From: Jannaschia seohaensis | GTDB taxonomy: Bacteria; Pseudomonadota; Alphaproteobacteria; Rhodobacterales; Rhodobacteraceae | Direction of reading: 5' to 3' | Assembly (NCBI RefSeq): GCF_900116765.1 | Contig: NZ_UETC01000016.1 | Coordinates: 1 to 64,000, forward strand | Length of the DNA stretch: 64,000 nucleotides | Part shown: piece after piece, positions 10,111-64,000 of the stretch | How positions within the stretch are numbered: the stretch's first letter is position 1 | How the letters are laid out: every line of letters begins with the position of its first letter | Position numbers and translations under genes: made by a program | The notes under the pieces: generated by a model | Told to the model about the DNA's origin: nothing | Seen by the model: only the letters and a program-made list of their open reading frames with translations | The model's database searches: none

Positions 10111-10194
10111 GGTGGGCCTTTCGCTTTGGGCAGGGCCGTTCTACCTGCGGTTCAATCCGTCGCAACTGCGGCATCGGCGAAAGGACACCGAGCG

Positions 10195-10866
10195 ATGAAA
10201 CGTTGTGTCGTCTTCGACCTCGACGGGACGCTCTGCGACACGTCGGGTGACCTGCTGGCGGCGGCCAACGCGGCCTTGGCGGCGCTGGACCGGCCCGAAC
10301 GGCTGAACCATTCCGCGGTCGAGGACCGGGCCACGGCGCTCCGCGGCGGGCGCGCGATGCTGCGGCTGGCGCTCTCGCGGACGGGCCCGGTGGACGAGGC
10401 GCTGATCGATGCCGGCTACCAGCCGCTGCTCGACGCCTATCGCGCCGCGATCTGCGAACACACGACCTTCTATCCCGGCGCGCGCGAGGCGGTGGCGCGG
10501 TTGCGGGACCGGGGCGACGCGGTGGCGATCTGCACCAACAAGCCGGAGGGCCTCGCGCGGCTGCTGATGTCGGAACTAGGCGCCACCGACGCCTTCGACG
10601 CCCTGGTGGGTGCCGATACGCTGCCCGTGCGCAAACCGGACGCTGCCCCACTTATGGCTGCGATCGAGCGAGCGGGGGGCGCGGCCTCCCGCGCGGTGCT
10701 GGTGGGTGATACCGAGACCGACCGGAGGACCTCGACCGCGGCGGGGGTGCCGTCGATCCTGGTGACCTTCGCGCCGCTCGGCCCGGCGGTGGCGGATCTG
10801 CGGCCGGACGCGCTGTTGCACCATTTCGACCAATTGGAGGCGGCGCTGGCGGTGGTGGGACTGTAG
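10195..10866 (+). CDS. HAD-superfamily phosphatase, Gph-like
   Basis: A 223-residue HAD hydrolase probably acting as a phosphoglycolate phosphatase, clearing 2-phosphoglycolate. Motif I is VFDLDGTLCDT with the Asp nucleophile near residue 8, motif II ICTNKP, motif III the Lys in VRKPDAAP, and motif IV GDTETDRRT. A helical cap domain lies between motifs I and II. ATG 10195 gives the typical MKRCVVFDLDGT start. Close relatives act on other small phosphates, so the substrate is an inference. It is divergent from glmU and convergent with the MmgE/PrpD gene. Confidence 0.82.
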   Translation: MKRCVVFDLDGTLCDTSGDLLAAANAALAALDRPERLNHSAVEDRATALRGGRAMLRLALSRTGPVDEALIDAGYQPLLDAYRAAICEHTTFYPGAREAVARLRDRGDAVAICTNKPEGLARLLMSELGATDAFDALVGADTLPVRKPDAAPLMAAIERAGGAASRAVLVGDTETDRRTSTAAGVPSILVTFAPLGPAVADLRPDALLHHFDQLEAALAVVGL

Positions 10867-12253: not shown

Positions 12254-12340
12254 CCGCCCAGCCTGCGCCGGGCGGGACGCGCGCACTGCGCCGGAAGCGA
12301 CACGGATTGACGCGTCTCGACCTTAGCGACATTGAAAGGC

Positions 12341-13510
12341 ATGGAGACCTTCACGAAGCCATTCACCCGTCAGGAGCCGATCCCGGAAGAGGGGATCGCC
12401 GATGCCGTCGAGGTCATGCGCTCGGGGGCGCTGCACCGCTACGGTGCCCAGCCCAGCCGCGTCGCCGCGCTGGAGGAGGCCTTCGCCGCGCAGACCGGCG
12501 CGGCCCATGCGCTGGCCGTCGCCTCGGGCGGCTATGCGATGGGCTGCGCGCTCCGGGCGCTGGGGGTGGGGCCGGGCGACCCGGTTCTGACCAATGGCTG
12601 GACCCTGGCCCCCGTTCCGGGCGCCATCGCCGCCGTCGGCGCGCGTCCCATCCTGGTCGAGGTGACCGAGGATCTGGTGATCGACCTGGACGACCTCGCC
12701 GCCAAGGCGGACCGCGCCAAGGTTCTGATGCTCAGCCATATGCGCGGCCATATCGCCGACATGCCCGCCCTGATGGCGATCTGCGACGCCCATGGCATCG
12801 CCGTGATCGAGGATTGCGCTCACACGATGGGCGCCGCTTGGGAGGGGACGCCCTCGGGGCGCTGGGGCGCGGTGGGCTGCTATTCCTGCCAGACCTACAA
12901 GCATGTCAATTCCGGCGAGGGCGGGCTGATCGTCACCGACGACGCGGATCTCGCCGCGCGGATGATCCTGCTTTCCGGCAGCTACATGCTCTATGCCCGA
13001 AATGGCACCGCGCCCGGGGAGGAGGTCTTCGCCCGCCACAAGGGGATCATGCCCAACGTCTCGGGCCGGATGGACGAATTGCGCGCTGCGATCCTGGCGC
13101 CGCAGATCCGCGACTTGCCCCAGCAGGCGGAGCGCTGGAACGACCGCTACCGCGCGCTGGAGGCGGGCTTCCGCGACGCGCCGGGCCTCTCCGTGATCCC
13201 GCGCCCGCAGGCCGAAGCCTATGTCGGCTCCTCGATCCAGCTTCTGGCCGACGATCCCGCGCGCCTGCCGCCCTTCATTGAGGGCTGTCTCGCGCGGGGC
13301 GTCGAATGGAAGTGGTTCGGGGCCGACCAGGCGGTCGGCTTCACCTCCGCCCACCGCCATTGGGAATATGTCGAGGCGCAGTCGCTGCCGCGCACCGATG
13401 CCGTGCTCGCCCGGCTGATCGACCTGCGGGTGCCGCTGACCTTCGATCTGGAGGATTGCGCCGTGATCGCGCGGATCACCTCGGAAGAGGCGGCGCGGCA
13501 TCTGGTGTGA
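12341..13510 (+). CDS. DegT/DnrJ/EryC1/StrS-type PLP aminotransferase
   Basis: A 389-residue aminotransferase of the sugar/secondary-metabolite type. The family transfers an amino group to keto-sugars or related carbonyls using pyridoxal phosphate. The PLP-binding Lys is most likely in QTYKHVNSGEGG, with IEDCAHTMGA providing the conserved Asp that contacts the cofactor. The N-terminal half has the usual FAAQTGAAHALAVASGGYAM loop. ATG 12341 is chosen over a TTG three codons upstream. No nucleotide-sugar or capsule genes accompany it, so the substrate is open; it stands alone between the MmgE/PrpD gene and a pseudogene patch. Confidence 0.8.
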   Translation: METFTKPFTRQEPIPEEGIADAVEVMRSGALHRYGAQPSRVAALEEAFAAQTGAAHALAVASGGYAMGCALRALGVGPGDPVLTNGWTLAPVPGAIAAVGARPILVEVTEDLVIDLDDLAAKADRAKVLMLSHMRGHIADMPALMAICDAHGIAVIEDCAHTMGAAWEGTPSGRWGAVGCYSCQTYKHVNSGEGGLIVTDDADLAARMILLSGSYMLYARNGTAPGEEVFARHKGIMPNVSGRMDELRAAILAPQIRDLPQQAERWNDRYRALEAGFRDAPGLSVIPRPQAEAYVGSSIQLLADDPARLPPFIEGCLARGVEWKWFGADQAVGFTSAHRHWEYVEAQSLPRTDAVLARLIDLRVPLTFDLEDCAVIARITSEEAARHLV

Positions 13511-13519
13511 CCCGTCCGG

Positions 13520-13600
13520 TCACAGCGCCTTGACGAAGTAATGCAGGTGCGGGCGCAGCATCGGCTGATCCCGCCAGGTCCTCGTCTCGATGGGGGTTCC
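13520..13600 (-). pseudogene. C-terminal remnant of an acetyltransferase-like gene
   Basis: On the minus strand the frame ending at TGA (13522-13520) reads TRTWRDQPMLRPHLHYFVKA followed by L and the stop. This resembles the final residues of small alphaproteobacterial proteins, possibly GNAT enzymes. There is no room for a complete gene before the next remnant, so it is read as an orphan C-terminus. The assignment is tentative. Confidence 0.35.
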
Positions 13601-13602
13601 TG

Positions 13603-14043
13603 CTAGACGAATCCGAGCTTGGGATAGAGCGACCGCATTTCGGCATTGGGGGAGAGCGTATCGGCCACCAGCCGCGTGAGCCCCATTTCGCGGGCGGCCG
13701 CCTCGCGGGCTTCCACCAGGGCGCGGCCCGTGCGCGTGCCCCGCGGGCCTCGGAGACGAACATGCGCTGGAGTTCGCCCGTGCGCGGGTCGAGGCGCTTG
13801 AGCAGGGCGCATCCGACGTTCTCGCCGTCCGGTCGTCGCGCCAAGACCAGACAGCCCTCGGGCGGCAGGTCATCCCCCGCATGGCTCCAGAATTCGGCCA
13901 GCGCTTTGCGGGGCGGTCGGGTCGAGCGGGTGGCCGATCTCGCCCATCCGCCGGGCGATAGGGGCGTAATATTGGGACAAGATGCCGTCGAGCGCCTGCC
14001 TGTCGGGCAGCGTCTCACAGCGCTCCACCGCGATTCCGGTCAT
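13603..14043 (-). pseudogene. GNAT acetyltransferase broken by two frameshifts
   Basis: Three minus-strand frames join into one GNAT-like protein. ATG 14043 starts MTGIAVERCETLPDRQALDG; a shift near 13906-13912 leads into KALAEFWSHAGDDLPPEGCL and then MFVSEARG. A second shift, in a GGGG run near 13740, leads to GTGRAL-type acetyl-CoA loop sequence (GTRTGRALVEAREAAAREMG) and the end LYPKLGFV. The acetyl-CoA-binding R-G-GTGRAL motif and the C-terminal LYPKLGF are typical of the family. Each break is explained by a one-base indel. ATG 14043 overlaps the stop of the upstream remnant. Sequencing error is a possible alternative, but the neighbouring nonsense mutation argues for decay. Confidence 0.65.
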
Positions 14044-14414
14044 GTCGCGGCGCCGATCTCGTGCGGCGGGCGCCAGGTCTCGGTGTGGAACCACCCGTCC
14101 CGTGCTGTCTTGCGGAAATCGCAGAGCTGCGAGTCCACCATCTGCCATGGCTTCAAGGGCTGCCTCGGCTTCTCTTCGGCCTGGGCCCAGGGGGCCGTGT
14201 AGATGTCCTACGTGCTCTCCGCCCCGGCGATGTCCTCGACCCGCACGCCGCCAGCGCGCCCGGACGCGGAGGGGCAGGGCAGCATATCGCCTCGGCGCGG
14301 CGTCCGGTCCGTTAGGATCATCGCGCAAGGACCGAACGGAGAGCGGGTCGCCCAGCGCAGGATGCGGTCGGCCACGGCGCCATTGCCCCTGTGGAAAGCG
14401 ACAGAATGGCCCAT
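14040..14414 (-). pseudogene. Remnant of a papain-like or YiiX-type small hydrolase gene, interrupted by TAG
   Basis: From ATG 14414 the minus strand reads MGHSVAFHRGNGAVADRILR, then WATRSPFGPCAMIL. This pattern (FHRGNG..D..IR..TRSP.SH) is like small permuted NlpC/P60 or YiiX-type proteins. An in-frame TAG at 14210-14208 sits where relatives, from memory, have Trp before D-I-(V/Y), so TGG to TAG is likely. The same frame continues DIYTAPWAQAEEKPRQPLKP and then to TGA at 14042, overlapping the next remnant's ATG. The His after TRSPFS in relatives is lost here (GPC). Family assignment is from memory and moderate at best. Confidence 0.5.
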
Positions 14415-14491
14415 GGCGGCTCCTTTGCGATGAATGGCACCGACGACGCTGCGTCCAAGGCGACCCTGGGTCACGTCAGGGGTTTCCCGAC

Positions 14492-16264
14492 CTACGGCCC
14501 TGGCGCGTAGGCGGCGATCAGGCGCTCCAGCGCCCGCTCGGTGATCTGGGTGCTGCCGCTTGCGTCGAGGAGGACGGCCCCGTCCCGCTCTGGCCGCGTC
14601 ACGGCGACGGATCCGGTCCCGAGGATGTCGAGCCTGCCCTGCCCGCCCCGCAAGTCCGTCGCCAGGGCGGGCAGGCGCAACACCAGCAAACCAGACACCC
14701 GGACCTGCGTATTCTCCTCGAGATAGAGGCCGTAGGTTCCGGCCCGACCGATCGCGCGTCCGTCGAGCTCCAGTAGCCCCGCGACATCGACCGTGGCGCC
14801 GCCGAAGATACGCCGGGATTTCTCGTGGCCCTGGAAGAGGCGGATCAGCGCCTCCTCGTCGTCTTCTTCACCGACCTCCGAGCCGAGGGCGATGCGGTGT
14901 GCCCCGGTTACGGTCACGGTGCCACCCGACAGCCGCAGACCGCAGCATGCCTGTGTCGTGATCCGCCCCGTTCCGGTGAGTGACAGGGTTCCGGCGCGTA
15001 CGAAGATCGGCCTGCGCCGACAGGTGCCCGCGTAATCGGCCACCTGCACCATCGGGTAGTCGGCGCGCGTCGCCCCGTTGAGCCAATTGTCGCCATCCTC
15101 GCGACCGCCGCCCCAATCGGTGAAGACGAGGATGCCGCGCTCCGTCCCGTTCAGCACGAGGCCGCGTACCGCCGTCTCCCGCGCGCGGATGGAGACGGCT
15201 GGGCCGCCGCCTCCGGTCGCCGTGATCCGCTCGAAAGTGACGTGGCGCCCGTCGTGATGCGTGTCCCAGGGGGCGGACTCGTGCGGTCCAGCCTGGCCAT
15301 CGCGTACGAGGATCGCCTCGCTGCTGCCCATGCCGAGCAGGCGCGCCGTTCGCCGTTCGCCGCGCTCAGAGGGGCCGATGCTGGTGGTGAACAGACTGCG
15401 CGTGTCAGTGCCGCGCAGCCCCTGCACCAAAGTTCCGCGTCCGCCTCCGTCGGCCACGCCATAGCCGAAGCGCCCCTTGCCCGGATCGCTCGCCAGCATC
15501 TCTGCCCGGCAATCGACGATCCGAGCCCCCTGGGTGCCCGTCAGCCGAATCCCGGTATCATAGCCGCGGGCGATGTGGACCCGCTCGATCAGCGGGTCGA
15601 CATGGCCCAGAACCAAGAGGGTCGGCGCGTTCCAGGCGTCGCGATTCGGCGGATGCGCCCAGACGCCGCCCGCGATCGTCACCGGATGGGCGTGGGCCCA
15701 GACGACGCAGGGTCTATATCGGGTGTCCCAAGGCCAAACCGAGTCCTCGTCGCCGGGGACGGAGCGCGGGTCGATCCCGCGCCGTACCCGCAAGGGCCGC
15801 GCGAGGACCAGCTGCGAGCGGGTCGATCCCTCGCCGATCTCCGCCCACTCTGCGATCGCGTAGACTCGGTCGTCCGAGCCACGGTCCCGCTGCCACGGGG
15901 CCAGGGCGTCGGAGACGATCTTGATCCAGCTGCCGGGGGCGGGCAGCGGAGTGTCGTCGGGTAGGGCGACGCTAATCCGCGTGCCACCGTCCTGCGTCTC
16001 GCGTAGATCGAACGGCCCCTCCAGCCGCGCGGCCGCCTGAAGGCCGGCGTGTTCCGCGTCCAGGATCAACTCCGCATCGCCCAGATCGAGCCTGAGCGGG
16101 CCGGTCGATCGGATCCGTTCGGTCAGCCGGTAGACCGCGCCGGACGTGGCGCGGACCATGGCGCCGCCCTGCGCCGCGGACCACTCCACCGCGCGCTGGA
16201 AGGCCGCGGTGTCGTCGGTCCGCCCATCCCCACGGGCACCGAATCGGTCAAGCGTCTCGGTCAC
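14492..16264 (-). CDS. Pectate-lyase-superfamily right-handed beta-helix protein
   Basis: The 590-residue product begins with the pectate-lyase superfamily signature [20 protein letters not shown], typical of phage tail-spike and glycosyl hydrolase 28-like beta helices. A long series of short beta-strand repeats follows to the end. There is no signal peptide. An acidic [13 protein letters not shown] loop lies near residue 455. It starts with GTG 16264, preceded by GAGGGGAA at good spacing. Proteins of this fold cleave or bind polysaccharides; no catalytic set could be assigned. It is a single gene between a pseudogene patch and the leucine-degradation operon, so it may be an acquired accessory gene. 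Confidence 0.7.
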
Positions 16265-16332
16265 GGTGGTTCCCCTCTCTATCGTGCTCTCACGTCATCT
16301 AGCGCGCCGCGCGCGAGGGAAAGTCGCATCCT

Positions 16333-16361
16333 CTGGACGCGCGCGCCCGCAGTGGCTATTA
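16333..16361 (+). promoter_or_regulatory. Candidate promoter of the leucine-degradation operon
   Basis: CTGGAC (16333-16338) and CTATTA (16356-16361) are 17 bases apart, upstream of the isovaleryl-CoA dehydrogenase gene. The palindrome at 16361-16380 begins at the last base of the -10, a position where a bound repressor would block transcription. Confidence 0.4.
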
Positions 16362-16380
16362 ATTGAACCAATGTTCAATT
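16361..16380. promoter_or_regulatory. Palindromic operator before ivd
   Basis: AATTGAACCAATGTTCAATT has perfect 8-base inverted arms (AATTGAAC / GTTCAATT) around CAAT. It is AT-rich within very GC-rich DNA and lies 60 bases before the ivd ATG. Leucine/isovalerate clusters in other proteobacteria are known to be controlled by TetR-type (LiuQ) or MerR-type (LiuR) regulators; the regulator here is not in the window. Confidence 0.6.
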
Positions 16381-16439
16381 CCTGCCGCGGGCAGGAGAGA
16401 CGGGTTCCGCCCGCGGGCGGGCCGGATGGGAGGTCGCCG

Positions 16440-17603
16440 ATGTTCACCGCCAGCATGCGCTTCGACGAGGGAGAGGACGTCGCCGCCCTGCGCGAGATGG
16501 TTCATCGCTGGGCCCAGGAGCGGATCGCGCCGATGGCCGCCGAGATCGACCAGTCCAACACCTTCCCGTCCGAACTCTGGCGCGAGATGGGAGAGCTGGG
16601 CCTGCTCGGCATCACCGTGCCCGAGACCGATGGCGGGGCGGGCATGGGCTATCTCGCCCATACCATCGCCATCGAGGAGATCGCGCGCGCCTCCGCCTCG
16701 GTCAGCCTCAGCTACGGCGCGCATTCCAATCTCTGCGTCAACCAGATCGCGCTGAACGGCACGGCGGAGCAGAAGGCCAAGTATCTGCCGGGCCTGATCT
16801 CGGGCGAAAACGTGGGCGCGCTGGCCATGTCCGAGGCGGGCAGCGGCTCGGACGTGGTGTCGATGAAGCTGCGCGCCGAGAAGCGCAACGACCGCTACGT
16901 CCTGAACGGCACGAAATACTGGATCACCAACGGCCCCGACGCCGACACCCTCGTTGTTTACGCCAAGACCGACCCCGATGCCGGCTCCAAGGGCATCACC
17001 GCCTTCCTGATCGAAAAGTCCATGACCGGGTTCAGCACCTCGAAGCATTTCGACAAGCTGGGAATGCGGGGCTCGAACACGGCGGAGTTGATCTTCGAGG
17101 ATGTCGAAGTGCCCTACGAGAACGTCCTGGGCGAGGAAGGCGGCGGCGTCCGCGTCCTGATGTCCGGTCTGGACTATGAGCGCGTCGTGCTGTCGGGCAT
17201 CGGCACCGGCATCATGGCCGCCTGCCTCGATCACGTCATGCCCTACCTGGCCGAGCGCAAGCAGTTCGGCAAGCCGATCGGGAGCTTCCAGCTGATGCAG
17301 GGCAAGATCGCGGACATGTATACCGCGATGAACTCCGCCCGGGCCTATGTCTACGAGGTCGCCAAGGCCTGCGATCGGGGCGAGGTCACGCGCCAGGATG
17401 CGGCGGCCTGCGTGCTCTATGCCTCCGAGGAGGCGATGAAACAGGCGCATCAGGCGGTACAGGCGATGGGCGGCGCGGGCTTCATGAACGACAGCCCCGT
17501 CTCGCGCCTCTTCCGCGACGCCAAGCTGATGGAGATCGGCGCCGGCACCTCCGAGATCCGCCGTATGCTGGTCGGACGGGAGCTGATGGGAGCGATGGGG
17601 TGA
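16440..17603 (+). CDS. ivd: Isovaleryl-CoA dehydrogenase
   Basis: This FAD-dependent acyl-CoA dehydrogenase oxidises isovaleryl-CoA to 3-methylcrotonyl-CoA in leucine breakdown and passes electrons to ETF. The 387 residues show the family signature [16 protein letters not shown] and a second signature near the C-terminus ([20 protein letters not shown]). The catalytic base is probably the Glu in [12 protein letters not shown], the position used by isovaleryl-CoA dehydrogenases rather than by short-chain enzymes. ATG 16440 is preceded by GGGAGG. It is the first gene of the leucine cluster, with a hairpin repeat separating it from mccB. Confidence 0.93.
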
Positions 17604-54550: not shown

Positions 54551-56746
54551 ATGGTAGCTATGGTTAGCGCTGAGATGGGTGATCAGACCTTTGCGGAGGG
54601 GACGGCGGACGAACTCCCCGCCGGCACGGAACTGCTGCACGGCCAGTATAAGATCGTCAGTTTCCTGAACGCTGGCGGCTTCGGCATCACCTATCGCGCG
54701 GTCGACAGCCTCGACCGTCCCGTCGTCATCAAAGAGTGCTTCCCGGGCGCCTTCTGCCGCCGCTCGCGCGCGATCGTGCAGCCCAGATCTCGCGCCCATA
54801 CCAATGAGTTCGACGGAATTGTCCGCCTCTTCGTGGAAGAAGCGCGCAGCCTCTCCAAGCTCCAGCACCCCAATATCGTCGGCGTGCATCAGGTCTTCGA
54901 GGAGAACGACACGGCCTATATGGCGCTCGATTTCGTTGAGGGCCGCGACCTGCTCGACATCCTGGAGGATCCGAGCACGGATCTGCCGCCTGACCAGATC
55001 GTCTCGATCCTGGACGACATGCTGGACGCGGTGCGATTCGTGCATGGGCAGGGGATGCTTCATCGCGACATCTCGCCGGATAACATCCTGATCGACGGCT
55101 CGGGCAAGCCCGTGCTGATCGATTTCGGCGCCGCGCGTCAGCAGGCGCAAAAGCAGAGCCGCGTTCTCTCGGCGATGCGCGTCGTCAAGGACGGCTACTC
55201 GCCGCAGGAATTCTACATCACCGGGTCGGAGCAGGGGCCGTTCAGCGACCTCTACGCGCTGGGCGCCTCGTTCTACCATCTGATCTCGCGCGAGATCCCG
55301 CCGGACAGCCAGCGCCGCCTGACCGCCATCGCTACGGGGGATCCGGACCCCTATGTGCCGCTGGCGGGGCGCTTCCCGGAATATGACGAGAATATGCTGA
55401 AGGCGATCGACAAGGCTTTGTCGATCTTGCCGCGTGACCGGATGCAGTCCGCCGCTGAATGGCTGGCCTTCATGAGCGGCCAGCCGATGCAGCCGGCCCC
55501 GACCCCGGCCCGGCCCAAGGCCGCGCCCGCCAACGCGCCCACCGCGCCGAAGGCCGGCAAGGGCAAGCTCGTGGCGGGCGTGGCCGTGCTCGCTGTCGCC
55601 GCGGGGCTCGGCTTCGTCTTCACCCAGGGCGGGGGTGAGGCCCTCGCCCCCGAGGCGCCCAGCCTTGCTTCGGTCGCGCCGGCCGCCACAAGCTCTCCGT
55701 TCCAGAGCGCACCGGAGGGCATCGACGAGACCTCCTTCGCGGTCTCGTCGAACGACACGCCCGCCGCCTCCGTCGAGACGCCGCACGCCCAGGCCGAGGC
55801 CCTCGTCGCACCCAGCCTCCCCGAACCGGAGATCGCCGCGCCCGCCGCGCCCGAGGCCGAGACCGAGCTCCCCTCCGCCGAGCCCCGCCGCGTCGCGCCG
55901 ATCCCGGAGGGACCGTCCGAGACCGACGTTGCCGCGGCGCTGCCGGTGCGCGCGCCCTCCTTTTCGGCGCGCCCGGCACTGCGCCCCGCGGGTCTGGCCA
56001 GTGCTTTCCTGCCGGAGCCGCAGCGCACCCCGGACGCCGCGGCCGAGCCGTCTGGCGCGACGATCCTGTCCGCGCCGCGCCGCGCGACGCCCGCCGACGA
56101 GGTCGTCACCGCCGAGTTGCCGCAGGATCCTGGCGTGGAGGCGGGCGACTGGTCCGATCTGCGTCCTGTCTCGGCCGAGTTGCCCGGCGCCGAGATCCTG
56201 CCCGAGCCCCCGGCCGCGGAGACCGAATTGCTCAGCACCGGCTGGACGCTGGCGCTGCCCTTCCCGGATCTGCGCGTCGACGCGCAGGGCCGCTCCTGGG
56301 TGCTGAGCGCCAATGGCACGCCGGTCGCCGACCGGGCGGCCTTCGACGCGCTCATCGCCCGCGCGACCGATCTCTCCGCCGTTGAAGAGGTCGATGTGAC
56401 CATGGGCATCGGGCCGCAGGGCGGCTCCGCCAGCCTGCAACAAACGACGACGCTGGCCACGGTCTACGAGACCCATCTCGAGGACGGCCCGACCTTCCGC
56501 TCGGAGCGCGATGGGGACGGCTGGACCACCCGCGTCCTTCGGATCGCGGCCGGGGGCGGCAGCGACCTTCAGGTCGGCGATGTGGTTATCGGCGCGATGG
56601 ACACGGGCCAGACCTTCGAGGGCCCGACCGGCCTGGCCGAGAAGATCGCGGAGGGCCTCGCCAACGATCTCGACATTCTCAACTTCGCTGTCACCCGGGA
56701 TGGCAGCACCTGGGTCGCCTCCCTGGCCCTGCCCTCGCGCGACTGA
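54551..56746 (+). CDS. Transmembrane Ser/Thr protein kinase with PDZ-like C-terminal domain
   Basis: The first gene of the signalling/dynamin cluster; 731 residues. The Hanks-type kinase domain spans about 30-305, with Gly loop LNAGGFGITYRAVD, catalytic Lys61 in VVIKECFPG, HRDISPDN (Asp173) and DFG 191-193, so it should be active. The GFGITY plus IKE-FP combination marks a bacterial subgroup. One transmembrane helix (about 340-358) is followed by a 200-residue Pro/Ala/Glu-rich segment. The C-terminal domain (about 560-731) has two repeats of a strand pattern, ending in a PDZ-like GGGSDLQVGDVVIGAMDTG loop, probably periplasmic. ATG 54551 is used; a second ATG lies three codons in. Confidence 0.85.
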   Translation: MVAMVSAEMGDQTFAEGTADELPAGTELLHGQYKIVSFLNAGGFGITYRAVDSLDRPVVIKECFPGAFCRRSRAIVQPRSRAHTNEFDGIVRLFVEEARSLSKLQHPNIVGVHQVFEENDTAYMALDFVEGRDLLDILEDPSTDLPPDQIVSILDDMLDAVRFVHGQGMLHRDISPDNILIDGSGKPVLIDFGAARQQAQKQSRVLSAMRVVKDGYSPQEFYITGSEQGPFSDLYALGASFYHLISREIPPDSQRRLTAIATGDPDPYVPLAGRFPEYDENMLKAIDKALSILPRDRMQSAAEWLAFMSGQPMQPAPTPARPKAAPANAPTAPKAGKGKLVAGVAVLAVAAGLGFVFTQGGGEALAPEAPSLASVAPAATSSPFQSAPEGIDETSFAVSSNDTPAASVETPHAQAEALVAPSLPEPEIAAPAAPEAETELPSAEPRRVAPIPEGPSETDVAAALPVRAPSFSARPALRPAGLASAFLPEPQRTPDAAAEPSGATILSAPRRATPADEVVTAELPQDPGVEAGDWSDLRPVSAELPGAEILPEPPAAETELLSTGWTLALPFPDLRVDAQGRSWVLSANGTPVADRAAFDALIARATDLSAVEEVDVTMGIGPQGGSASLQQTTTLATVYETHLEDGPTFRSERDGDGWTTRVLRIAAGGGSDLQVGDVVIGAMDTGQTFEGPTGLAEKIAEGLANDLDILNFAVTRDGSTWVASLALPSRD

Positions 56747-56780
56747 GCGTTGAGGCGTGTGTGAAGAAAGGACGTGAAAG

Positions 56781-57662
56781 ATGAAGTTTCTCCGTAACCT
56801 CTTCGGCAAGAAGTCGGCCCAGCCGTCGCATCCGAACCCCGCGGCGCAACAGCCGGTCCAGCGCCGTGCCGGCGCGTCTGAGCGCGCGCTCTCGGCGGCC
56901 GAGATCGCCGCGGCGCGCGCCGCCGTCCCGCCCACGCCCAAACAGGGCGCTGAAGCTCCGCTGGCGACGACGCAGATCCTCCAGAACCTCGCCGAGCGTC
57001 TCAAGGAGCCGTCGGCGACCGGCATCTGGGACATCGAGGAGGATGCGCCCGCGCCGAAAGCCGCCGCCCCGGCCGCCCCGGCGATGGCGAAGGCTCCGTC
57101 GAACCCGACCAGCCCCCTGGCGGAGATGGCGGCCCGGGCCCCGGCGCGCAGCGCCCGCCGCAACAAGACGCGCCTGATCGGCTTCGACACCTCGGAAGGC
57201 AGCGTCGTCGACCTCTTCGACGAGGACGAGACCGCCACGTCGCTAGCCGGTGCCAATGCCGCCCCGGCGGCGTCCGCCGTCACTTTCCCGGTGGGCTGGG
57301 TTCTGATCGTGCAGGGGCCTGGTCGCGGCCATGCCTTCCCGCTGAGCGCTGGCATGTCCTCTATCGGACGCGGCGAGGATCAGACGGTGCGCCTGGACTT
57401 CGGCGATGCCGCGATCTCCCGCTCGGGCCATGCCGCCATCGTCTACGATCCCGACGAGCGCAGCTTCCTGCTGGGGCAGGGCGGCAAGTCGAACATCGTT
57501 CGTCTGAACGGAAAGCCCGTCATCGCCAGTACCGAGATGAACGATGGCGACGAGATCAAGATCGGCGAGACCATCCTGCAACTGAAGGCGCTGTGCGGGC
57601 CCGATTTCGATTGGAGCGACACCGACGGGGAGGAGGACGACGAAGATGTGGCGATCGCCTGA
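56781..57662 (+). CDS. FHA-domain protein
   Basis: A 293-residue phosphothreonine-binding adaptor. The N-terminus is short and basic (MKFLRNLFGKKSA), perhaps touching the membrane, followed by an Ala/Pro-rich disordered region. A conspicuous NKTRLIGFDTSEGS motif at about 128-141 could be a kinase target, since Thr-Arg motifs of this sort are phosphorylated in other FHA partners. The FHA domain (about 170-270) has the conserved SSIGRGEDQTVRLDF, AISRSGHAAIVYD and later NGKPV turns; Arg197 and Ser213/Arg214 would grip the phosphothreonine. The tail is very acidic. It overlaps the phosphatase gene by 17 bases. Confidence 0.85.
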   Translation: MKFLRNLFGKKSAQPSHPNPAAQQPVQRRAGASERALSAAEIAAARAAVPPTPKQGAEAPLATTQILQNLAERLKEPSATGIWDIEEDAPAPKAAAPAAPAMAKAPSNPTSPLAEMAARAPARSARRNKTRLIGFDTSEGSVVDLFDEDETATSLAGANAAPAASAVTFPVGWVLIVQGPGRGHAFPLSAGMSSIGRGEDQTVRLDFGDAAISRSGHAAIVYDPDERSFLLGQGGKSNIVRLNGKPVIASTEMNDGDEIKIGETILQLKALCGPDFDWSDTDGEEDDEDVAIA

Positions 57663-58833
57663 GCCGCGCTACGACGTCGCTTCTGCGATCGCTCAAGGCG
57701 GGCGTGACTATCAGGAGGATGCGATCACGACCGACTTTCCCTTCGGCATGGACAGCGGTGTCGCCGTTCTGGCCGACGGGATGGGCGGCCATGCCGCAGG
57801 CGATGTCGCCTCCAAGATCGTCGTCACCGAAGTCTATAGCGAGTTGAAATTCCAGTCGGCCAATTTCGCCGACTTCGAGCGGGACATCCCCGCTTTCATG
57901 CGGAAAGCCGCCAAGGGCGCCAATAGCTGCGTCCGGGATCACGTCCGCGCCAATCCCGGGTGCCAAGGCATGGGGGCGACGCTGGTCAGCGTCGTGCTGG
58001 TGGAAAACCGGATGTATTGGATGTCCATCGGCGACAGCCCGCTCTACCTGCTGCGCGACGGAAAACTGTGCCAGCTCAACGAGGATCATTCGCTGGCCCC
58101 TCAGATCGACTTCATGGTCGAGCAGGGTCTGATCAGCGCCGAGGCGGCCAAGAACCATCCCGACCGCAACTGCCTGACCTCGGTCATCCTGGGCGGCAAG
58201 GTGGCGCGTGCCGACTGCCCGATGGAGCCGTTCGAGCTGAAGCTGGGCGATGTGGTCGTGGTGTCGTCCGACGGGCTGCAATATCTCGAAGAGCCCAAGA
58301 TCCGGAAGATCCTTCACAAATATCGGCGCCGCAAGGCCGCCGAGATCGCGGGATACCTGCTGGAGGCGCTGGATGAACTGGCCGATCCAGACCAGGACAA
58401 TATCAGCTTTTCGGTCATCAAGCTGAACCACATGAAGCCGGTCGTCCGGAAGATCGTGGCCAAGCCGGTGGGCCTGATCGAGACCTACAGCGCCCCTGCG
58501 ACCCGCGTCGCGGCGCTCCCGGATGTCGGCGGGGTCGCGATCGACGACGATACGGACCCCGCCGGGTCCGAGCCCATGGCCGATCCCGACGAAGAGGAAG
58601 CGGCGCGCGCCAGGGCCGAGATCCGGGCGCGGATGGAAGCCGAGATCCGGGCCGAGCTCGAAGCGGAAGCGGCCGCCCGGGCCGCTGCGGTGATCTCGGT
58701 TGAGCCCGGGCCCGACCCCGAAGTCGAACCGGCGGAGCCGGCGGCGGATGCCGACACCCGGTCCGAGCCTGAACCGGATCCCGAAGAAGACGAGGTGCTG
58801 CCCCTGGCGGCCAGTGGAGGAGCGAGATCATGA
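57646..58833 (+). CDS. PP2C-type protein phosphatase
   Basis: A 395-residue metal-dependent Ser/Thr phosphatase, probably reversing the kinase at 54551. The PPM motifs are complete: GGRDYQEDA, VLADGMGGHAAGD (metal Asp44), GCQGMGATLVSVVLVENRMY, SIGDSPLYLLRDG, VVVSSDGLQ and ADPDQDNISFSV. The catalytic domain covers about 8-262. The C-terminal 130 residues are unusual for the family: a coiled-coil-like run of Glu/Ala/Arg (about 314-348) and an acidic Pro-rich tail. It overlaps the FHA gene by 17 bases and the next gene by 4. Confidence 0.88.
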   Translation: MWRSPEPRYDVASAIAQGGRDYQEDAITTDFPFGMDSGVAVLADGMGGHAAGDVASKIVVTEVYSELKFQSANFADFERDIPAFMRKAAKGANSCVRDHVRANPGCQGMGATLVSVVLVENRMYWMSIGDSPLYLLRDGKLCQLNEDHSLAPQIDFMVEQGLISAEAAKNHPDRNCLTSVILGGKVARADCPMEPFELKLGDVVVVSSDGLQYLEEPKIRKILHKYRRRKAAEIAGYLLEALDELADPDQDNISFSVIKLNHMKPVVRKIVAKPVGLIETYSAPATRVAALPDVGGVAIDDDTDPAGSEPMADPDEEEAARARAEIRARMEAEIRAELEAEAAARAAAVISVEPGPDPEVEPAEPAADADTRSEPEPDPEEDEVLPLAASGGARS

Positions 58834-60146
58834 ATGCCGCCGTCACCGAAACGCTGACCGGTCTGGACCGGGCCCTGGCCTCCGGGCTTCTGCCGTCCAA
58901 GGCGTCGGACCTGGCCCGCTCCCTGCGCGCCAGGCTGGCCGCGCCGATCCGCGTCACGGTGATGGGTCTGCCCGATACGGGCAAGTCGCGGGTCATCGAT
59001 CTGCTGGCCGGCGACTCGATCGTGCCCGAGGGGGTCCGCCTGCCCGCGCTGCGCCTGAAATATGGCGAATTCGCGATGACGCGTATCACCCGCCCTGACG
59101 GCTCCACCGAAGAGCAGGCGGGTCTGGATGGGGCCTGGGCCGCCGGGCGGCGGGCCGTGATGGTCGACATGGAAGCTCCGCTGCCCGCGCTCAAGCGGAT
59201 CACTCTGATGGAGATCGGCATCGGCCTGGGCCGGATCGAACAGGCTCGGGCCTGCGCCTGGGCGGCCAAGCAGAGCGAGTTGATCATCTGGTGCACCCGC
59301 GATTTCGGGGCGCCGGAACAGGCCGCCTGGGCGACGATGCCCGACGCGATCCGCGATCAGGCCATTCTCCTGCGTCCGAAGATCGATCTCTCGCCCAATC
59401 CGGCCGCGGCGCTGGACCGGGCGCACCGGCTGGCGCAGGACGATTTCGAGCGGGTGCTGGCCATCGACACGCCCCGGGCCCTGGCCGCGCGGCAGGGCGC
59501 CGAGGTCGACCGGGCCGAGTTCAAGGCGTCCGGAGGACAGTCTCTGATCGCCGCGGTCCTCAAGGTGATGGACCGGACGCGTCAGGGCTATCTCGACCGC
59601 GCCGACCTGCTGCTGGCCCGCCATCCCGAGGCCATCGAGGCCGTGGCCCCCATCGCCCGCGCGACGCCGGTTGTTCTTGTGGCCCGGGTCGCCCCCGCGA
59701 CGCCGGCGCCCGCCCCGGCCGCCGCCCGCTCCTCGTCCGATGCGGTCGCCAAGCTGCTCAACTCCGTCGTCTCGCAAGGGGGCGATGCGGCCAAGGCGCC
59801 GGCCCCGGCGCTCTCCGAGGCGTCGCTGGATCTGCTGCGCGACGCGGTGACCCGCCTCCGCTCCGTCGGTACGGAGCTCTCGCAGACCGAAGGCAAGTTC
59901 CGCCGTACGGCCATGCTCGACCGCTCTGTGGAGGAGATCGTCGAACTGGAAGAGAGGATTGCCGACGCGCAGGAGGACGATCCGGCCCTGAGCCGCGCCC
60001 ATGAGGACGTTCAGGCTGCGCTCGACCTGATCCAACTGATCCAGATCGAGAACGCTCCGCAGGCCGCTGACGATGCCGTCGTGCTGATGTTGCAGCTGCG
60101 CCGCCGCTTCGACCGCTGGCTCGACCGCACCCCCGTCGCGGCGTGA
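58830..60146 (+). CDS. P-loop NTPase-like protein with degenerate GTPase motifs
   Basis: A 438-residue protein of unknown function. A Walker A-like GLPDTGKSRVIDLLAGDSIV lies at residues 46-65, the spacing used by dynamin-like GTPases. A clear DxxG and N/TKxD are not visible; SELIIWCTRDFGAPEQ stands where a G3/G4 region would be. From about 300 the sequence is helical (LDLLRDAVTRLRSVGTELSQ, IVELEERIADAQEDD), probably a coiled coil. It may be a nucleotide-binding partner that has lost GTP hydrolysis. The ATG overlaps the phosphatase stop, so synthesis is coupled to signalling genes. Confidence 0.6.
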   Translation: MNAAVTETLTGLDRALASGLLPSKASDLARSLRARLAAPIRVTVMGLPDTGKSRVIDLLAGDSIVPEGVRLPALRLKYGEFAMTRITRPDGSTEEQAGLDGAWAAGRRAVMVDMEAPLPALKRITLMEIGIGLGRIEQARACAWAAKQSELIIWCTRDFGAPEQAAWATMPDAIRDQAILLRPKIDLSPNPAAALDRAHRLAQDDFERVLAIDTPRALAARQGAEVDRAEFKASGGQSLIAAVLKVMDRTRQGYLDRADLLLARHPEAIEAVAPIARATPVVLVARVAPATPAPAPAAARSSSDAVAKLLNSVVSQGGDAAKAPAPALSEASLDLLRDAVTRLRSVGTELSQTEGKFRRTAMLDRSVEEIVELEERIADAQEDDPALSRAHEDVQAALDLIQLIQIENAPQAADDAVVLMLQLRRRFDRWLDRTPVAA

Positions 60147-60164
60147 CGCTGCGCCGGGGACACG

Positions 60165-60263
60165 ATGAACCCGCAATTCACCAATTATCGGTCATTCTTT
60201 CGACAATCGGTGAGGGTCAGATTGGTTTCAAGGGTCGTGGCAAGGCGACCCAGTAGTAAGTGA
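60165..60263 (+). other. Possible leader peptide and hairpin before the dynamin gene
   Basis: The 127-base gap before the dynamin-like gene holds a 32-codon frame starting at ATG 60165 (MNPQFTNYRSFFRQSVRVRL onward). It overlaps an imperfect inverted repeat, CACCAATTATCG (60179-60190) against CGACAATCGGTG (60201-60212), with 10 of 12 bases pairing. It might be a translated leader controlling the gene downstream, or just a structured 5' region. No T-run follows the stem. Confidence 0.25.
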
Positions 60264-60273
60264 GGATCACATC

Positions 60274-62382
60274 ATGGAGATGTCGCAAATCGACCAGACC
60301 GGGGCAAGCGCCGCCACCCGGCCGGATGTCGCGGCCTCGGTGCTGTCGAAGGGGCAGGAGGCGCTGCGCGGGTTGGCCGAAGATATCGCCGGCCTGCGGG
60401 AGATCCTGTGCGACGTCGAGGCGATCGGCGGCCCCGACATGGCCAAGAAACTGCGCGGGCTGATGCACGATCTCGACACGTTCGAGCCCGCGGTCACGAT
60501 GATCGGTCAGATCAAGTCGGGCAAGACGACCCTGGTCAACGCCATGGCGGGCCATCCGGACCTACTGCCCTCGGATGTGAACCCGTGGACGTCCGTGGTG
60601 ACGTCGCTGCACCTCAACGTGCCCCGCGCCTCCGACGATCCGCGCGCCAGCTTCCGTCTGTTCGACGCCGACGAGTGGGACAATCTCGTCCGCAATGGCG
60701 GCCGCATCGGCGAGCTTTCGGCCCGCGCCGGCGCCGACAAGGAGGTCGAGAAGCTGCGCAAGCAGATCGCGCGCATGCACGAGAAGACGCGCGAGCGGCT
60801 GGGCCGGAAGTTCGAGATGATGCTCGGCCAGCAGCACGATTACGGCAGCTTCGACGATTCTCTCATCCAGCGCTATGTCTGCATGGGCGACGATTTCGAC
60901 CCGGACCAGAAGGCGGACGGGCAGGGCCAGTTCGCCGACATCACCCGCTCCGCCGATCTGTGGCTCGACGCGGCGGGCCTGCCGATGCCGCTGTGCATCC
61001 GCGATACGCCGGGCGTCAACGACACCTTCATGATGCGCGAGCAGATCACGATCCGCGCCCTGCGCGACTCCAAGACCTGCGTTGTCGTCCTCTCGGCCCA
61101 TCAGGCGCTGTCGGCCACCGACATGGGCCTGATCCGTCTGATCTCGAACATGAAGTCGCGCCAGGTCGTGGTCTTCGTCAACCGTATCGACGAGTTGTCG
61201 GACCCCGCCGCTCAGGTGCCGGAGATCCGCGCCTCGCTGATCGACACCCTGTCGCAGGGCGGGATGCAGGTGCCCGATATCGTGTTCGGATCGGCCTATT
61301 GGGCCACCGCCGTTCTCAAGAACGAGATCGACGGGATGATCGCCGCCTCCGCCGAGGCGCTGCGCGGCTATGCCGTCGAGGCGCTGGGCCCTGAGGCCGC
61401 TGGCATGTCCGTGGCCGAGATGGTCTGGTCGCTCTCGGGGATGCCCGCCCTCTACGAGGCGATCGGCGTGCGCATCGCCGACGGCGTCGGCCTTCAGACG
61501 ATCATCGCCGCCCGCCGCCGCGCGGCAAACTATGTGGCCGCCTTGCGCGCGTCCTCGCAGATGGTCTCGCTCAAGGGCGGGAGCGGCCCGGTCCAGAAGA
61601 TGCCCGCCGCCGAGGTCGAGGGTATGCTTCAGGACATCCATGACGAGATGATCGTGGATCTGAACGCCCGGCTGGACGAGGCGTTCAAGCGGTTCGGCGC
61701 AAGGGTCGACCAGGTGCATATCCGCTTCGTCGACCGGGCGCTGGAAAGCCTGATCCACCATCTGGAGACCAAAGGCGAGAAGGAGGTCTGGAACTATTCG
61801 CCCGACGGCCTGCGCATGCTGATGCGGTCTTCCTATCAGGTGCTGCGCAAGAACGTCATGTCGGCCTGCGACAGTGTCTACAAGCGCGCGGGCGACGAGT
61901 TGACCGATGCCTATGCCCGCATCTTCGACGTCGAGGCGGAGAATTTCCGCGTCGAGCCGCCGGTCGTGCCCGAGACGCCGCAGCCGATGGCGCTGGCGCG
62001 GACCATCGCGCTGGATCTCAAGACCTCCTGGTGGAAAAGCTGGTGGGGTAAGCGCCGCGGCTACCGCGCCTTCTCCGACGGCTTCCGGGAACTGATCGCC
62101 GCCGAGACGCAGCCCATCGTGGCCGAACTGACCGCGCATCAGACCGAGGAAATCCGCGCCGTGGCCATGGGCCGCCTGGAGACCTTCCTTCGGGAGCAGC
62201 GCGACGTGCTGGCCGACATGTCGGCCAAGTCGCAGGTCTCCATCGAGGAGCTCAACGGTCTGTTTGGTGTCAGCCAGCAAAAAGAGCGGGAGATGCTGTT
62301 CGAGATGCTCTTCGAGGAGCTTGAGATCGACGATCCGATGCCCGGAGACGGGCGACCGGGCGAAGAAGGAGACGCGGCATGA
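60274..62382 (+). CDS. Dynamin-like GTPase
   Basis: A 702-residue large GTPase of the bacterial dynamin-like type, a family that remodels or fuses membranes. The GTPase core has G1 GQIKSGKTT (78-86), a likely switch Thr in NPWTSVVTSLHLN, G3 DTPGVND (244-250) and G4 NRID (303-306). A helical segment, about residues 140-190, is inserted between G1 and G3. The C-terminal half is helical with coiled-coil character. A Trp/Lys-rich patch, KTSWWKSWWGKRRGYRAF (about 589-606), could insert into lipid. It starts 127 bases after the previous gene and overlaps the next by 4. Confidence 0.85.
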   Translation: MEMSQIDQTGASAATRPDVAASVLSKGQEALRGLAEDIAGLREILCDVEAIGGPDMAKKLRGLMHDLDTFEPAVTMIGQIKSGKTTLVNAMAGHPDLLPSDVNPWTSVVTSLHLNVPRASDDPRASFRLFDADEWDNLVRNGGRIGELSARAGADKEVEKLRKQIARMHEKTRERLGRKFEMMLGQQHDYGSFDDSLIQRYVCMGDDFDPDQKADGQGQFADITRSADLWLDAAGLPMPLCIRDTPGVNDTFMMREQITIRALRDSKTCVVVLSAHQALSATDMGLIRLISNMKSRQVVVFVNRIDELSDPAAQVPEIRASLIDTLSQGGMQVPDIVFGSAYWATAVLKNEIDGMIAASAEALRGYAVEALGPEAAGMSVAEMVWSLSGMPALYEAIGVRIADGVGLQTIIAARRRAANYVAALRASSQMVSLKGGSGPVQKMPAAEVEGMLQDIHDEMIVDLNARLDEAFKRFGARVDQVHIRFVDRALESLIHHLETKGEKEVWNYSPDGLRMLMRSSYQVLRKNVMSACDSVYKRAGDELTDAYARIFDVEAENFRVEPPVVPETPQPMALARTIALDLKTSWWKSWWGKRRGYRAFSDGFRELIAAETQPIVAELTAHQTEEIRAVAMGRLETFLREQRDVLADMSAKSQVSIEELNGLFGVSQQKEREMLFEMLFEELEIDDPMPGDGRPGEEGDAA

Positions 62383-63254
62383 GCGACATGTCCCAAACCC
62401 CCGTCGAGCTCGGCGCCGCCGCCGTGGGCCCGACCGAAGCCCCCCGCAAGCCGCGCATGGCGATCATGGGCGAGTTCTCGGCTGGTAAGTCCACGCTGTC
62501 CAATCTGCTGCTCGGCGCCAAGCCTCTGCCGGAAAAGGTGACCGCGACCCGGCTCTCGCCGGTCTGGCTGACCAAGGGCAACGCGCCGCCGGTCGCTCAT
62601 TTCGTCGATGCGGAGCGCGCGCCGGAGCCTGTGACCGGCTTCGACGGCCTGGATGTGGACGCGGTGCGCTACGTGTCGATGTCGATCGACAGCACGATCC
62701 TCGAATATTGCGACCTGATCGACTTTCCGGGCATCTCGGACCCCAACATGGACAGCGACGTGTGGGAGCGGATGCTGCCCGAGATCGATCTGATCCTGTG
62801 GCTCACCCACGCGACCCAGGCTTGGCGCCAGTCCGAGGCCGCGGCCTGGGATCTCGTGCCCGAAGAGGTCCAGGCGCGCTCCATGCTGCTGGTGACGCGG
62901 TTCGACAAGCTGACCACCGAGCGCGACCAGAAGCGGGTTCTGGCCCGTCTGCATGCCGAGACGGAGGATCTGTTCGCGGGCATCTACCCGTTGTCGCTCC
63001 TCGATGCGCTGAACGCGGCGAAAGCCGGGGATGCCGATGCCTGGGACGCCAGTGGGGCGCGCCGCTTCACGCAGGATCTGCATATCGCGCTGGCCCGGCT
63101 GGACAGTTCGATCCCGGAGCCCGGGGCGGAGGCTGCCCCCGCGCCCGCGCCGGAGGCCGAGCCACAGACCGCGCGCCGGCCCTCCCGCCGGATCGTGCCG
63201 CGGCGGATTCGCGCGGCTCTGGGCGGCGGTCGCCGCTCGCGCCCCCAGGACTGA
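62379..63254 (+). CDS. Second dynamin-family-like small GTPase
   Basis: A 291-residue GTPase with complete motifs: G1 GEFSAGKST (31-39), switch-type TATRLS (55-60), G3 DFPGIS (115-120) and G4 TRFDKL (173-178). The GEFSAGKST-type G1 and DFPG are typical of dynamin-like and related septum/membrane GTPases. There is no long helical stalk. The C-terminus is a Pro/Ala linker followed by a strongly basic tail (RRPSRRIVPRRIRAALGGGR), probably binding acidic membrane or RNA. It is coupled to the large dynamin gene by a 4-base overlap, suggesting a heteromeric pair. Confidence 0.82.
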   Translation: MSDMSQTPVELGAAAVGPTEAPRKPRMAIMGEFSAGKSTLSNLLLGAKPLPEKVTATRLSPVWLTKGNAPPVAHFVDAERAPEPVTGFDGLDVDAVRYVSMSIDSTILEYCDLIDFPGISDPNMDSDVWERMLPEIDLILWLTHATQAWRQSEAAAWDLVPEEVQARSMLLVTRFDKLTTERDQKRVLARLHAETEDLFAGIYPLSLLDALNAAKAGDADAWDASGARRFTQDLHIALARLDSSIPEPGAEAAPAPAPEAEPQTARRPSRRIVPRRIRAALGGGRRSRPQD

Positions 63255-63335
63255 GACCCGACCCCGCATCTTTCCCTCTTGGGCGGCATGGGCTAGACCC
63301 GTGCCGTCAAAGCTTTGTATGAGGCAGGGACTTAC

Positions 63336-63704
63336 ATGAGCGCGGATGCCCTGAAGGCGTTGACCGAGGCCCATGCGGCCTGCCGCACCGTGGTCTTCGC
63401 CGACATGACGACGCGAATGGTCCTGCTCTCCGAGAGCCGGACGGTGCTGCATCGTGAGGCCCAGCAGGCCTTGGCTTTGCGCGGCGGTCGCCTGCTGTCG
63501 GCGATGGACGGGGACGCGCCCGATCCGGAGACCGCTTGGGATATCGCCTATTCGATCGGTCCCGATGAGATCGCCGTATTCCTGCGCGTCCCGGATGCGC
63601 CTTCGGATGCGCTGTGCTGCCTCTGCGCGCCGGATATCGACCTCGATGCTTTCGCCACGGACGCGCGCAGCTGCCTCAACCGTCTCGCTGGGGTAGAGGG
63701 ATGA
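63336..63704 (+). CDS. Small roadblock/LC7-like protein
   Basis: A 122-residue protein with alternating helix and strand: an N-terminal helix, ALKALTEAHAACRTVVFADM, then strands (TRMVLLSES), a second helix with LHREAQQALALRGGRLL, and late strands (DEIAVFLRVPD). The pattern recalls roadblock/LC7 proteins such as MglB, which regulate small GTPases, but the match is by eye and weak. ATG 63336 follows a CTAGAC (63293-63298) that could be a -10 with a poor TTTCCC -35 16 bases upstream. The stop overlaps the next ATG. Confidence 0.5.
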   Translation: MSADALKALTEAHAACRTVVFADMTTRMVLLSESRTVLHREAQQALALRGGRLLSAMDGDAPDPETAWDIAYSIGPDEIAVFLRVPDAPSDALCCLCAPDIDLDAFATDARSCLNRLAGVEG

Positions 63705-64000
63705 GCGATCCCGACCGGTTCGACGACCGCCTTGCGCAGCTTGCCGGCTCTGACGAGACGGTCGGCGCGGCGCGGGTGATCGCGCGGGCCGGAGGCGGGG
63801 GCAGGGCGGTCGCTCTGGCCGTGTTGAACGCCATCGACGAGTCGATCCTGCCCGCCGAGCTGGTCGTCGCCTCCGAGGCCGGAGAAACGATGACGCTTTC
63901 GGTGGCGGCGCGGCGCCTGCGGCTTGTGGTTGCGGCATCCGAGGATCTGGCCGCGGATACCGTTATCGGGCAGGAGTTGGACCCCGAGGGTACCGAGGAG
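63701..64000 (+). CDS. Partial gene of unknown function, cut by the right edge
   Basis: ATG 63701 overlaps the preceding stop (ATGA) and opens exactly 100 codons to the edge without a stop. The visible part begins MSDPDRFDDRLAQLAGSDET and alternates hydrophobic strands (RAVALAVLNAIDESILPAEL, RRLRLVVAASEDL) with acidic turns. No family was recognised. Coupling to the roadblock-like gene puts it in the same system; the rest must lie to the right. Confidence 0.6.
   Translation, partial: MSDPDRFDDRLAQLAGSDETVGAARVIARAGGGGRAVALAVLNAIDESILPAELVVASEAGETMTLSVAARRLRLVVAASEDLAADTVIGQELDPEGTEE

Follow-up and report, generated by a model that had tools for sequence, protein, structure and literature searches.

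Within the first 64,000 nucleotides of contig NZ_UETC01000016.1 of Jannaschia seohaensis (hereafter the window, bases 1-64000 of the 92,662-base contig C27 in a genome of 4.84 Mb), eight plus-strand genes from position 54551 on, which we name K, F, P, L, D1, D2, R and G8, bring together a Ser/Thr kinase, an FHA adaptor, a PP2C phosphatase, a set of dynamin-related GTPases and a protein of predicted roadblock fold. We propose, at roughly even odds (about 0.5), that the operon senses the envelope by Ser/Thr signalling and thereby gates membrane remodelling by a dynamin-type machine that has a roadblock regulator of its own; phosphorylation would govern the path from signal to output. Comparison across relatives supports the kinase-FHA-phosphatase-dynamin unit as conserved and co-inherited, and in the samples searched (Alphaproteobacteria, plasmids and phages) it is restricted to Rhodobacteraceae. 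Its parts are of known kinds and the combination appears to be new; none of the open-access papers listed in our searches describes this gene set, and the accessible part of PMC7016017 mentions dynamin and FHA but concerns other systems. The features on which the argument draws are as follows, all on the plus strand.

54551-56746, plus strand: K, transmembrane Ser/Thr kinase of 731 aa (Pfam Pkinase, 1.9e-30)
55568-55624, plus strand: predicted transmembrane helix of K, residues 340-358 (hydropathy 2.37)
56174-56743, plus strand: periplasmic C-terminal PDZ-like region of K (PDZ_6 matches of homologues, DegP profile match)
56781-57662, plus strand: F, FHA adaptor of 293 aa with the FHA domain at residues 194-262 (Pfam FHA, 2.7e-7)
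57646-58833, plus strand: P, PP2C phosphatase of 395 aa (PP2C_2, 4.6e-11)
58830-60146, plus strand: L, degenerate GTPase and relative of D2 (hhalign 99.8%, E 1.4e-27; alignment of 23)
60274-62382, plus strand: D1, large dynamin-like GTPase of the BDLP class, 702 aa (Dynamin_N 7.1e-11, predicted model, Foldseek)
62029-62061, plus strand: Trp/Arg-rich tip of D1, residues 586-596, a putative membrane-contact paddle (conservation, model)
62379-63254, plus strand: D2, small dynamin-related GTPase with G domain and tail, 291 aa (Dynamin_N, 6.9e-12)
63336-63704, plus strand: R, protein of predicted Roadblock/LC7 fold (ATG at 63336, in-frame TTG at 63315; model, Foldseek, VIA)
63701-64000, plus strand: G8, conserved protein of which the window holds the start and which ends at C27:64513 (78 ORFs matched in 76 loci)

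An earlier note on this DNA had described seven plus-strand genes and a truncated eighth, with overlaps of 4-17 bases at four of the seven junctions. All eight genes are present on the plus strand, and the junctions measure, in gene order, a gap of 34 bases, overlaps of 17 and 4, a gap of 127, an overlap of 4, a gap of 60-81 and an overlap of 4, the overlaps being upper bounds because each scripted ORF begins at the earliest start codon it could have. The run continues past the window edge, where G8 reads on and three periplasmic sensor-like genes come after it. Neither L nor R matches any Pfam family.

The strongest indication that these genes belong together comes from their conservation. 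A scan of named genomes with a D1 profile, from which the best 80 of at least 543 confirmed relatives were kept, gave 81 loci when a second copy in this genome (L009) was added; 58 of the 81 fall in one D1 clade (clades being defined by D1 identities of at least 62%), so that counts lean to Yoonia, Loktanella and Jannaschia. All eight genes stand in the same order at 47 of the 81 loci, 44 of these having no other called plus-strand gene between them, and some of the incomplete cassettes are cut by contig ends. Homologues are not scattered, and the conserved order that the earlier note had put forward for checking is found across relatives. Common junctions across loci are -4 for D1-D2 and -4 to +3 for P-L, and F-P is mostly overlapping, again as upper bounds. 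Over 23 dereplicated full loci, F, P, L, D1, D2, R and G8 diverge in step (Spearman 0.65-0.91 between their pairwise identities), with a median D1 identity of 0.56 over 23 loci, and it is this correlation together with the ordered loci that marks the eight-gene unit as more than chance. Whole K correlates more weakly with the other genes (0.33-0.46) whereas its kinase domain alone reaches a rho of 0.84 against D1, which suggests that the linkers and periplasmic parts of K diverge faster.

The second copy, on the minus strand of contig C22, is complete and diverged: it has kinase, FHA, PP2C, L, D1, D2, R and G8, its D1 is 43% identical and its kinase carries no transmembrane segment. Its R was missed at the locus-scan threshold and found by a separate search, and L and D2 were told apart throughout by their position relative to D1 because iterated profiles cross-match. 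The GC content of the operon is close to that of its surroundings at both sites (0.682 versus 0.681 in the window, 0.687 versus 0.685 at the second copy).

Among the matches listed, the closest D1 is that of Jannaschia formosa, at 93% identity; most of the named D1 relatives kept are titled Rhodobacteraceae or carry the names of genera that we take to belong there. D1 was found in 10 of 60 relatives, in 5 of the 20 genomes of the genus and in 90 of 345 genomes of the family, where R occurs in 80 and both together in 79; a class-wide sample of 337 genomes yielded D1 in two, both of this same family. Such patchiness makes a core role in cell division, one of the outputs that the earlier note had considered, unlikely. 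Eleven family genomes have D1 without R, and in each of the two examined (L108 and L109) D1 is accompanied by a single D2/L-like partner, with no member of the other families. This two-gene arrangement also occurs at L105 and L106, in genomes that carry a nearer D1 elsewhere, and at L105 (13485-14591) a PcfJ-like protein adjoins the dynamin pair, with no signalling genes there. D1 is also found in 18 plasmid records, all of Leisingera, Ruegeria or Rhodobacter, and three annotated plasmid examples repeat the gene set in varied order. On a plasmid of Ruegeria sp. AD91A (L130, 13558-29494), two tandem dynamin pairs with two hypothetical genes between them are followed by genes for kinase, FHA and PP2C and for a pair of substrate-binding proteins that lack an annotated permease alongside. 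None of the phage records carries D1.

Structure prediction upholds the assignment of D1 as a large dynamin-like GTPase. Its AlphaFold2 model (702 residues, mean pLDDT 80.3) shows N-terminal helices, a G domain and long trunk helices, and the top Foldseek matches are BDLP (2j69, 1.5e-15), followed by SynDLP, IniA and Cj-DLP1. Structural comparison gives VIA Z scores of 18-22 (up to 22.4) for chains of the same four proteins, with 545 residues aligned to BDLP 2j69 at Z 19.4 and a root-mean-square deviation (rmsd) of 6.2, and the best sequence-profile match is Cj-DLP1 (E 3.2e-14). Residues G78, Q79, K81, G83, K84, T106, DTPG 244-247, N303, R304, D306 and E307 are invariant in 40 sequences, and we take them to represent the G1-G4 motifs. 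D1 combines the large GTPase domain of a bacterial dynamin-like protein (DLP) with what the model predicts to be its helical neck and trunk (helices 390-653 plus the N-terminal helices). The likeness to Nostoc BDLP (2j69) and mycobacterial IniA (6j72) extends to the predicted neck, G domain and long helical trunk, at 13% identity in the Foldseek alignment, and the tip sequence differs. In D1 the tip is placed by the model at the trunk end, between two long trunk helices and at low pLDDT; W586, W587, W590, W591 and G596 (WWxxWWxxxxG) are at least 90% conserved in the 40 sequences, and the tip may touch the membrane. The operon partners of BDLP and IniA presumably differ from those of D1.

The best PDB profile match of D2 is Cj-DLP2 (5owv_C, E 3.5e-16), positions 15-230 aligning with chain residues 64-280 of 614. 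The second GTPase of the earlier note therefore stands as a G-domain protein, but not as a full DLP, since D2 has the G domain only and no trunk like that of D1. D1 and D2 find their best profile matches in Cj-DLP1 and Cj-DLP2, respectively, whose genes follow each other in this order; the Campylobacter jejuni pair (PMC6104087) likewise consists of adjacent dynamin genes, and its fold is related. The pair described here differs in the reduction of D2 to a G domain and in the company of a kinase, FHA, PP2C, roadblock protein and degenerate GTPase. The last of these is L, which is homologous to D2, keeps the P-loop and has no DxxG in an alignment of 23, and is hence a degenerate GTPase, in line with the degenerate P-loop protein first noted at this place. 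In one locus of the Rhodobacter/Tabrizicola clade (L083) L is 837 aa long, compared with 438 aa in the window.

R is confirmed as a member of Roadblock/LC7 by its predicted fold alone. In the AlphaFold2 model (pLDDT 89.7) helices and strands follow one another as in roadblock proteins, alpha-2beta-alpha-3beta-alpha, and Foldseek retrieves a Streptomyces roadblock protein (3kye, 1.4e-5) and Thermus MglB (1j3w, 1.7e-5), which VIA scores at Z 17.2 (rmsd 2.4, 118 aligned) and 16.2, respectively. There are 64 Foldseek matches at E up to 0.001, nearly all of the 50 listed being roadblock, MglB or Ragulator/LAMTOR proteins, and VIA Z is 15-17 across the top 21 structures. Pfam finds no roadblock match in 29 members, a PDB profile search with R returned nothing, and a PF03259 search of the bacterium's own genome was empty. 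The roadblock-like label of the earlier note is thus borne out by predicted fold and unsupported by sequence. For the downstream G8, Pfam gave no match that was consistent across 45 members, and the best PDB profile match (E 0.069) is unconvincing.

The signalling proteins retain the residues of active enzymes and readers. K has the catalytic lysine (K61), HRD (171-173) and DFG (191-193) of Hanks-type Ser/Thr kinases in columns at least 95% conserved (55 sequences), and a transmembrane segment is present in 55 of 59 homologous kinases, counting only those of at least 400 aa and leaving out shorter rows. Beyond the membrane, 10 of 21 homologous K periplasmic regions match PDZ_6 (E up to 0.1; best 8.8e-6) and the profile of the region matches DegP (E 1e-4). 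In F, residues T130, R131, G134, F135, R197, S213, H217 and N238 are at least 95% conserved (67 sequences); R197, S213, H217 and N238 make up the conserved Arg/Ser/His/Asn set of FHA phosphothreonine readers and presumably serve in binding phosphothreonine. A conserved motif, R127-xx-T130-R-xx-G-F, precedes the FHA domain, and we propose it as a candidate phosphoacceptor. P matches Stp1_PP2C_phos at E 4.2e-44, under the cut-off of that model, and D25, D44, G45, D209 and D251 are at least 95% conserved (69 sequences), the four aspartates being those of the PP2C metal site, which we take to be their role here.

The case for envelope sensing draws on neighbouring genes as well as on K. On the same strand to the right of G8, a PstS-like (PBP_like_2) part and an OmpA domain are fused in one protein (L008:716-2308), followed on that strand by two genes for PilJ-domain proteins (L008:2400-3389 and L008:3588-4472). 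PstS-OmpA (16 loci) and PilJ (12 loci) are the neighbours that reach the largest number of D1 clades, each spanning three, namely the large clade and two clades of single loci. SBP_bac_3 genes occur at eight named loci of the large clade and at two hand-added plasmid loci, which alone make up their second group; on these plasmids, of Ruegeria and Leisingera, they follow or flank the signalling genes, and the members at L068 and L070 contain a LysM domain. In both PstS-OmpA and the LysM proteins a ligand-binding part is paired with an OmpA or LysM domain, which we assume to bind the wall. A hairpin of 11 pairs with a T-rich tail begins 28 bases past the second PilJ gene (L110:14500-14524). After the PilJ genes come a minus-strand short-chain dehydrogenase and an MFS transporter; farther right are an ECF sigma factor and a ChrR-like cupin protein (L008:9160-9792 and 9789-10475). 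The left flank holds a gene for RNase J and, on the minus strand, one for a molybdopterin oxidoreductase that we read as formate-dehydrogenase-like. Abhydrolase, RTX/cadherin-like and Peripla_BP_5 neighbours in Yoonia were rejected as parts of the system, being found in one clade only.

Several observations weigh against this interpretation. At 31 of the 55 loci whose kinase is transmembrane, no periplasmic partners were found in the available flanks, and a soluble-kinase subtype exists (4 of 59 kinases, including that of this genome's second copy), so that envelope sensing cannot be general. PstS-OmpA, PilJ or SBP genes accompany 24 of 55 transmembrane-kinase loci and none of the four soluble-kinase loci (p 0.14), and we accordingly do not take it as established that transmembrane kinases go with periplasmic partners. 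Six neighbour clusters reach two groups, five of them beyond that of SBP_bac_3 and apparently unrelated, and terminator-like sites over the region are at chance level (7 found, 6.5 expected). Of the 15 loci in the Rhodobacter/Tabrizicola clade, eight show no kinase despite more than 5.3 kb of sequence upstream of F; at the other seven no F was called, the upstream part being cut or unread. The C-terminal region of the window's own K has no Pfam PDZ match, the tip of D1 is of low confidence, flanked by blocks of pLDDT 54 and 63, and the roadblock homology of R is undetectable by sequence (3.9% in hhalign against 14 roadblock sequences).

We tentatively suggest the following mechanism. The PstS-OmpA and PilJ proteins, the PDZ-like domains of K, or both, would detect the state of the envelope, perhaps as misfolded protein ends or a captured ligand. 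To judge from the conserved active sites, K would then phosphorylate F, possibly at the T130 motif, and/or the GTPases; binding of phosphothreonine by the FHA domain would assemble a complex, and the PP2C phosphatase would reset it. The predicted folds suggest that D1 may dock with L as a degenerate GTPase scaffold and with D2 as a stalkless DLP2-like GTPase, and that it could tether, bend or patch the inner membrane via its Trp/Arg-rich tip, while the MglB-like R, encoded next to D2, may act as its GAP or scaffold. More doubtful, and in our estimate distinctly less probable than the gating as such, is the fuller proposal that D1 would be the first known case of a bacterial dynamin under a Ser/Thr phosphorylation switch, in which a transmembrane, PDZ-bearing receptor kinase reads envelope damage and, via FHA and PP2C, licenses a complex of dynamin, degenerate GTPase, small GTPase and roadblock protein for repair or budding of the inner membrane.

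A role in anti-phage or anti-plasmid defence, in which the dynamin pair would act on infected membranes and the kinase, FHA and PP2C would sense infection, is the best of the alternatives, although we consider it rather unlikely. Dynamins of the LeoABC type are, as we take it, linked to defence through Eleos, and weak LeoA matches were obtained for D1 (4.1e-5) and D2 (2.2e-4) and a LeoBC match for D2 (0.0065). The patchy distribution in genus and family and the plasmid copies would suit such a role, and the best PADLOC matches of K are the defence kinases mad6 (1.2e-42) and PD-T4-6 (1.4e-42). These matches cover a kinase domain common to many unrelated kinases and are expected on that account, and the NCBIfam MADS6 match (5.7e-35) is far under the curated cut-off at 120.9 against 460 bits. 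LeoABC/Eleos, in the accessible text of PMC4159319, likewise has several dynamin genes together, but its sequences are distant and that text names no signalling genes; DynA affects the phage resistance of Bacillus subtilis according to the available part of PMC8844932. When 106 of 155 flanking ORFs were scanned with PADLOC at 1e-8, four models were matched (mad3 by six ORFs, mad8 by five, AriA by two and mad2 by one). The lack of D1 in phage records also argues against defence, for which the recurrent periplasmic binding-protein partners would be odd.

Somewhat less probable still is a switch of the conservon or MglAB kind, in which D2 and R would position pili, flagella or another machine and D1 would be the effector. 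The MglB fold of R and the PilJ-domain partners are consistent with it. So are genes of a single sequence cluster that follow G8 in seven loci of the Rhodobacter/Tabrizicola clade (L083, L086, L089, L090, L091, L096 and L098), of which the sole one tested, that of L083, is MotB-like by Pfam and is followed by FlgE- and FlgK-like genes; these flagellar neighbours are confined to the one clade, may be there by chance, and were rejected as parts of the system. Actinobacterial conservons, as presented in the accessible portions of PMC13343842 and PMC4316618, and MglA/MglB likewise combine a sensor kinase, a roadblock protein, a protein of unknown function and a small GTPase in one operon. The conservon kinase CvnA is histidine-kinase-like and CvnD is Ras-like, whereas K is a Pkinase-type Ser/Thr kinase and D2 a Dynamin_N/Era-like GTPase whose profile lends no support to a likeness to MglA, and no dynamin, FHA or PP2C is named among the four conservon core proteins in those portions. 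The true dynamin in the present operon is, moreover, a large and well conserved component.

The kinds of signalling protein are also those of the type VI secretion system (T6SS), in which we take PppA to be the counterpart of the phosphatase; T6SS is not known to us to need a dynamin. PpkA/Fha control is set out in the available text of PMC3953482, and the present operon differs from it in that no adjoining secretion genes were found and that the apparent outputs are GTPases. No secretion gene is among ten ORFs scanned within 10.5 kb to the right, on which ground a type VI locus beside the operon was rejected. The statement of the earlier note that no secretion gene is visible holds for these ORFs and is qualified by a VipA gene elsewhere in the genome, on C11, away from the operon copies on C27 and C22. 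Ignoring kinship, VipA is somewhat commoner with D1 among the 60 relatives (7 of 10 versus 12 of 50, p 0.008) and with R in the family (27 of 80 genomes, p 0.038), but in the larger sample, where 85 of 345 genomes have VipA, the association with D1 has a p of 0.064 (29 of 90 versus 56 of 255). We read this as a weak association and not as dependence, since VipA is absent from 61 of the 90 genomes with D1 and from 53 of the 80 with R. A detached control module of the PpkA-Fha-PppA kind acting in trans on the genome's type VI system is thus improbable, and the ORFs scanned beside the operon include none of the T6SS core genes with which such modules are encoded. As a separate observation, an apparent type VI cluster in another genome (L132, G024:C10:74000-92000) contains a 1358-aa ORF (12516-16592) that begins with a TssB (VipA) domain, carries VipA sequence a second time and has a TssC (VipB) domain near the C-terminal end, adjoined by an Ion_trans channel-like gene (11674-12519), with a separate VipA gene about 10 kb away; long frames matching VipA recur in other genomes of the family.

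A phosphorylation-gated, dynamin-type remodelling operon, if this is what K to G8 encode, would constitute a receptor-to-dynamin pathway whose logic is analogous to the control of membrane trafficking in eukaryotes and which, in the samples searched, is restricted to Rhodobacteraceae. To our knowledge, the control of the timing and placement of bacterial dynamins is largely open, and the operon offers a defined system in named, cultured species for a direct test of dynamin control. It joins three logics that are usually found apart, namely the Hanks kinase with FHA, the roadblock protein with its GTPase, and the dynamin.

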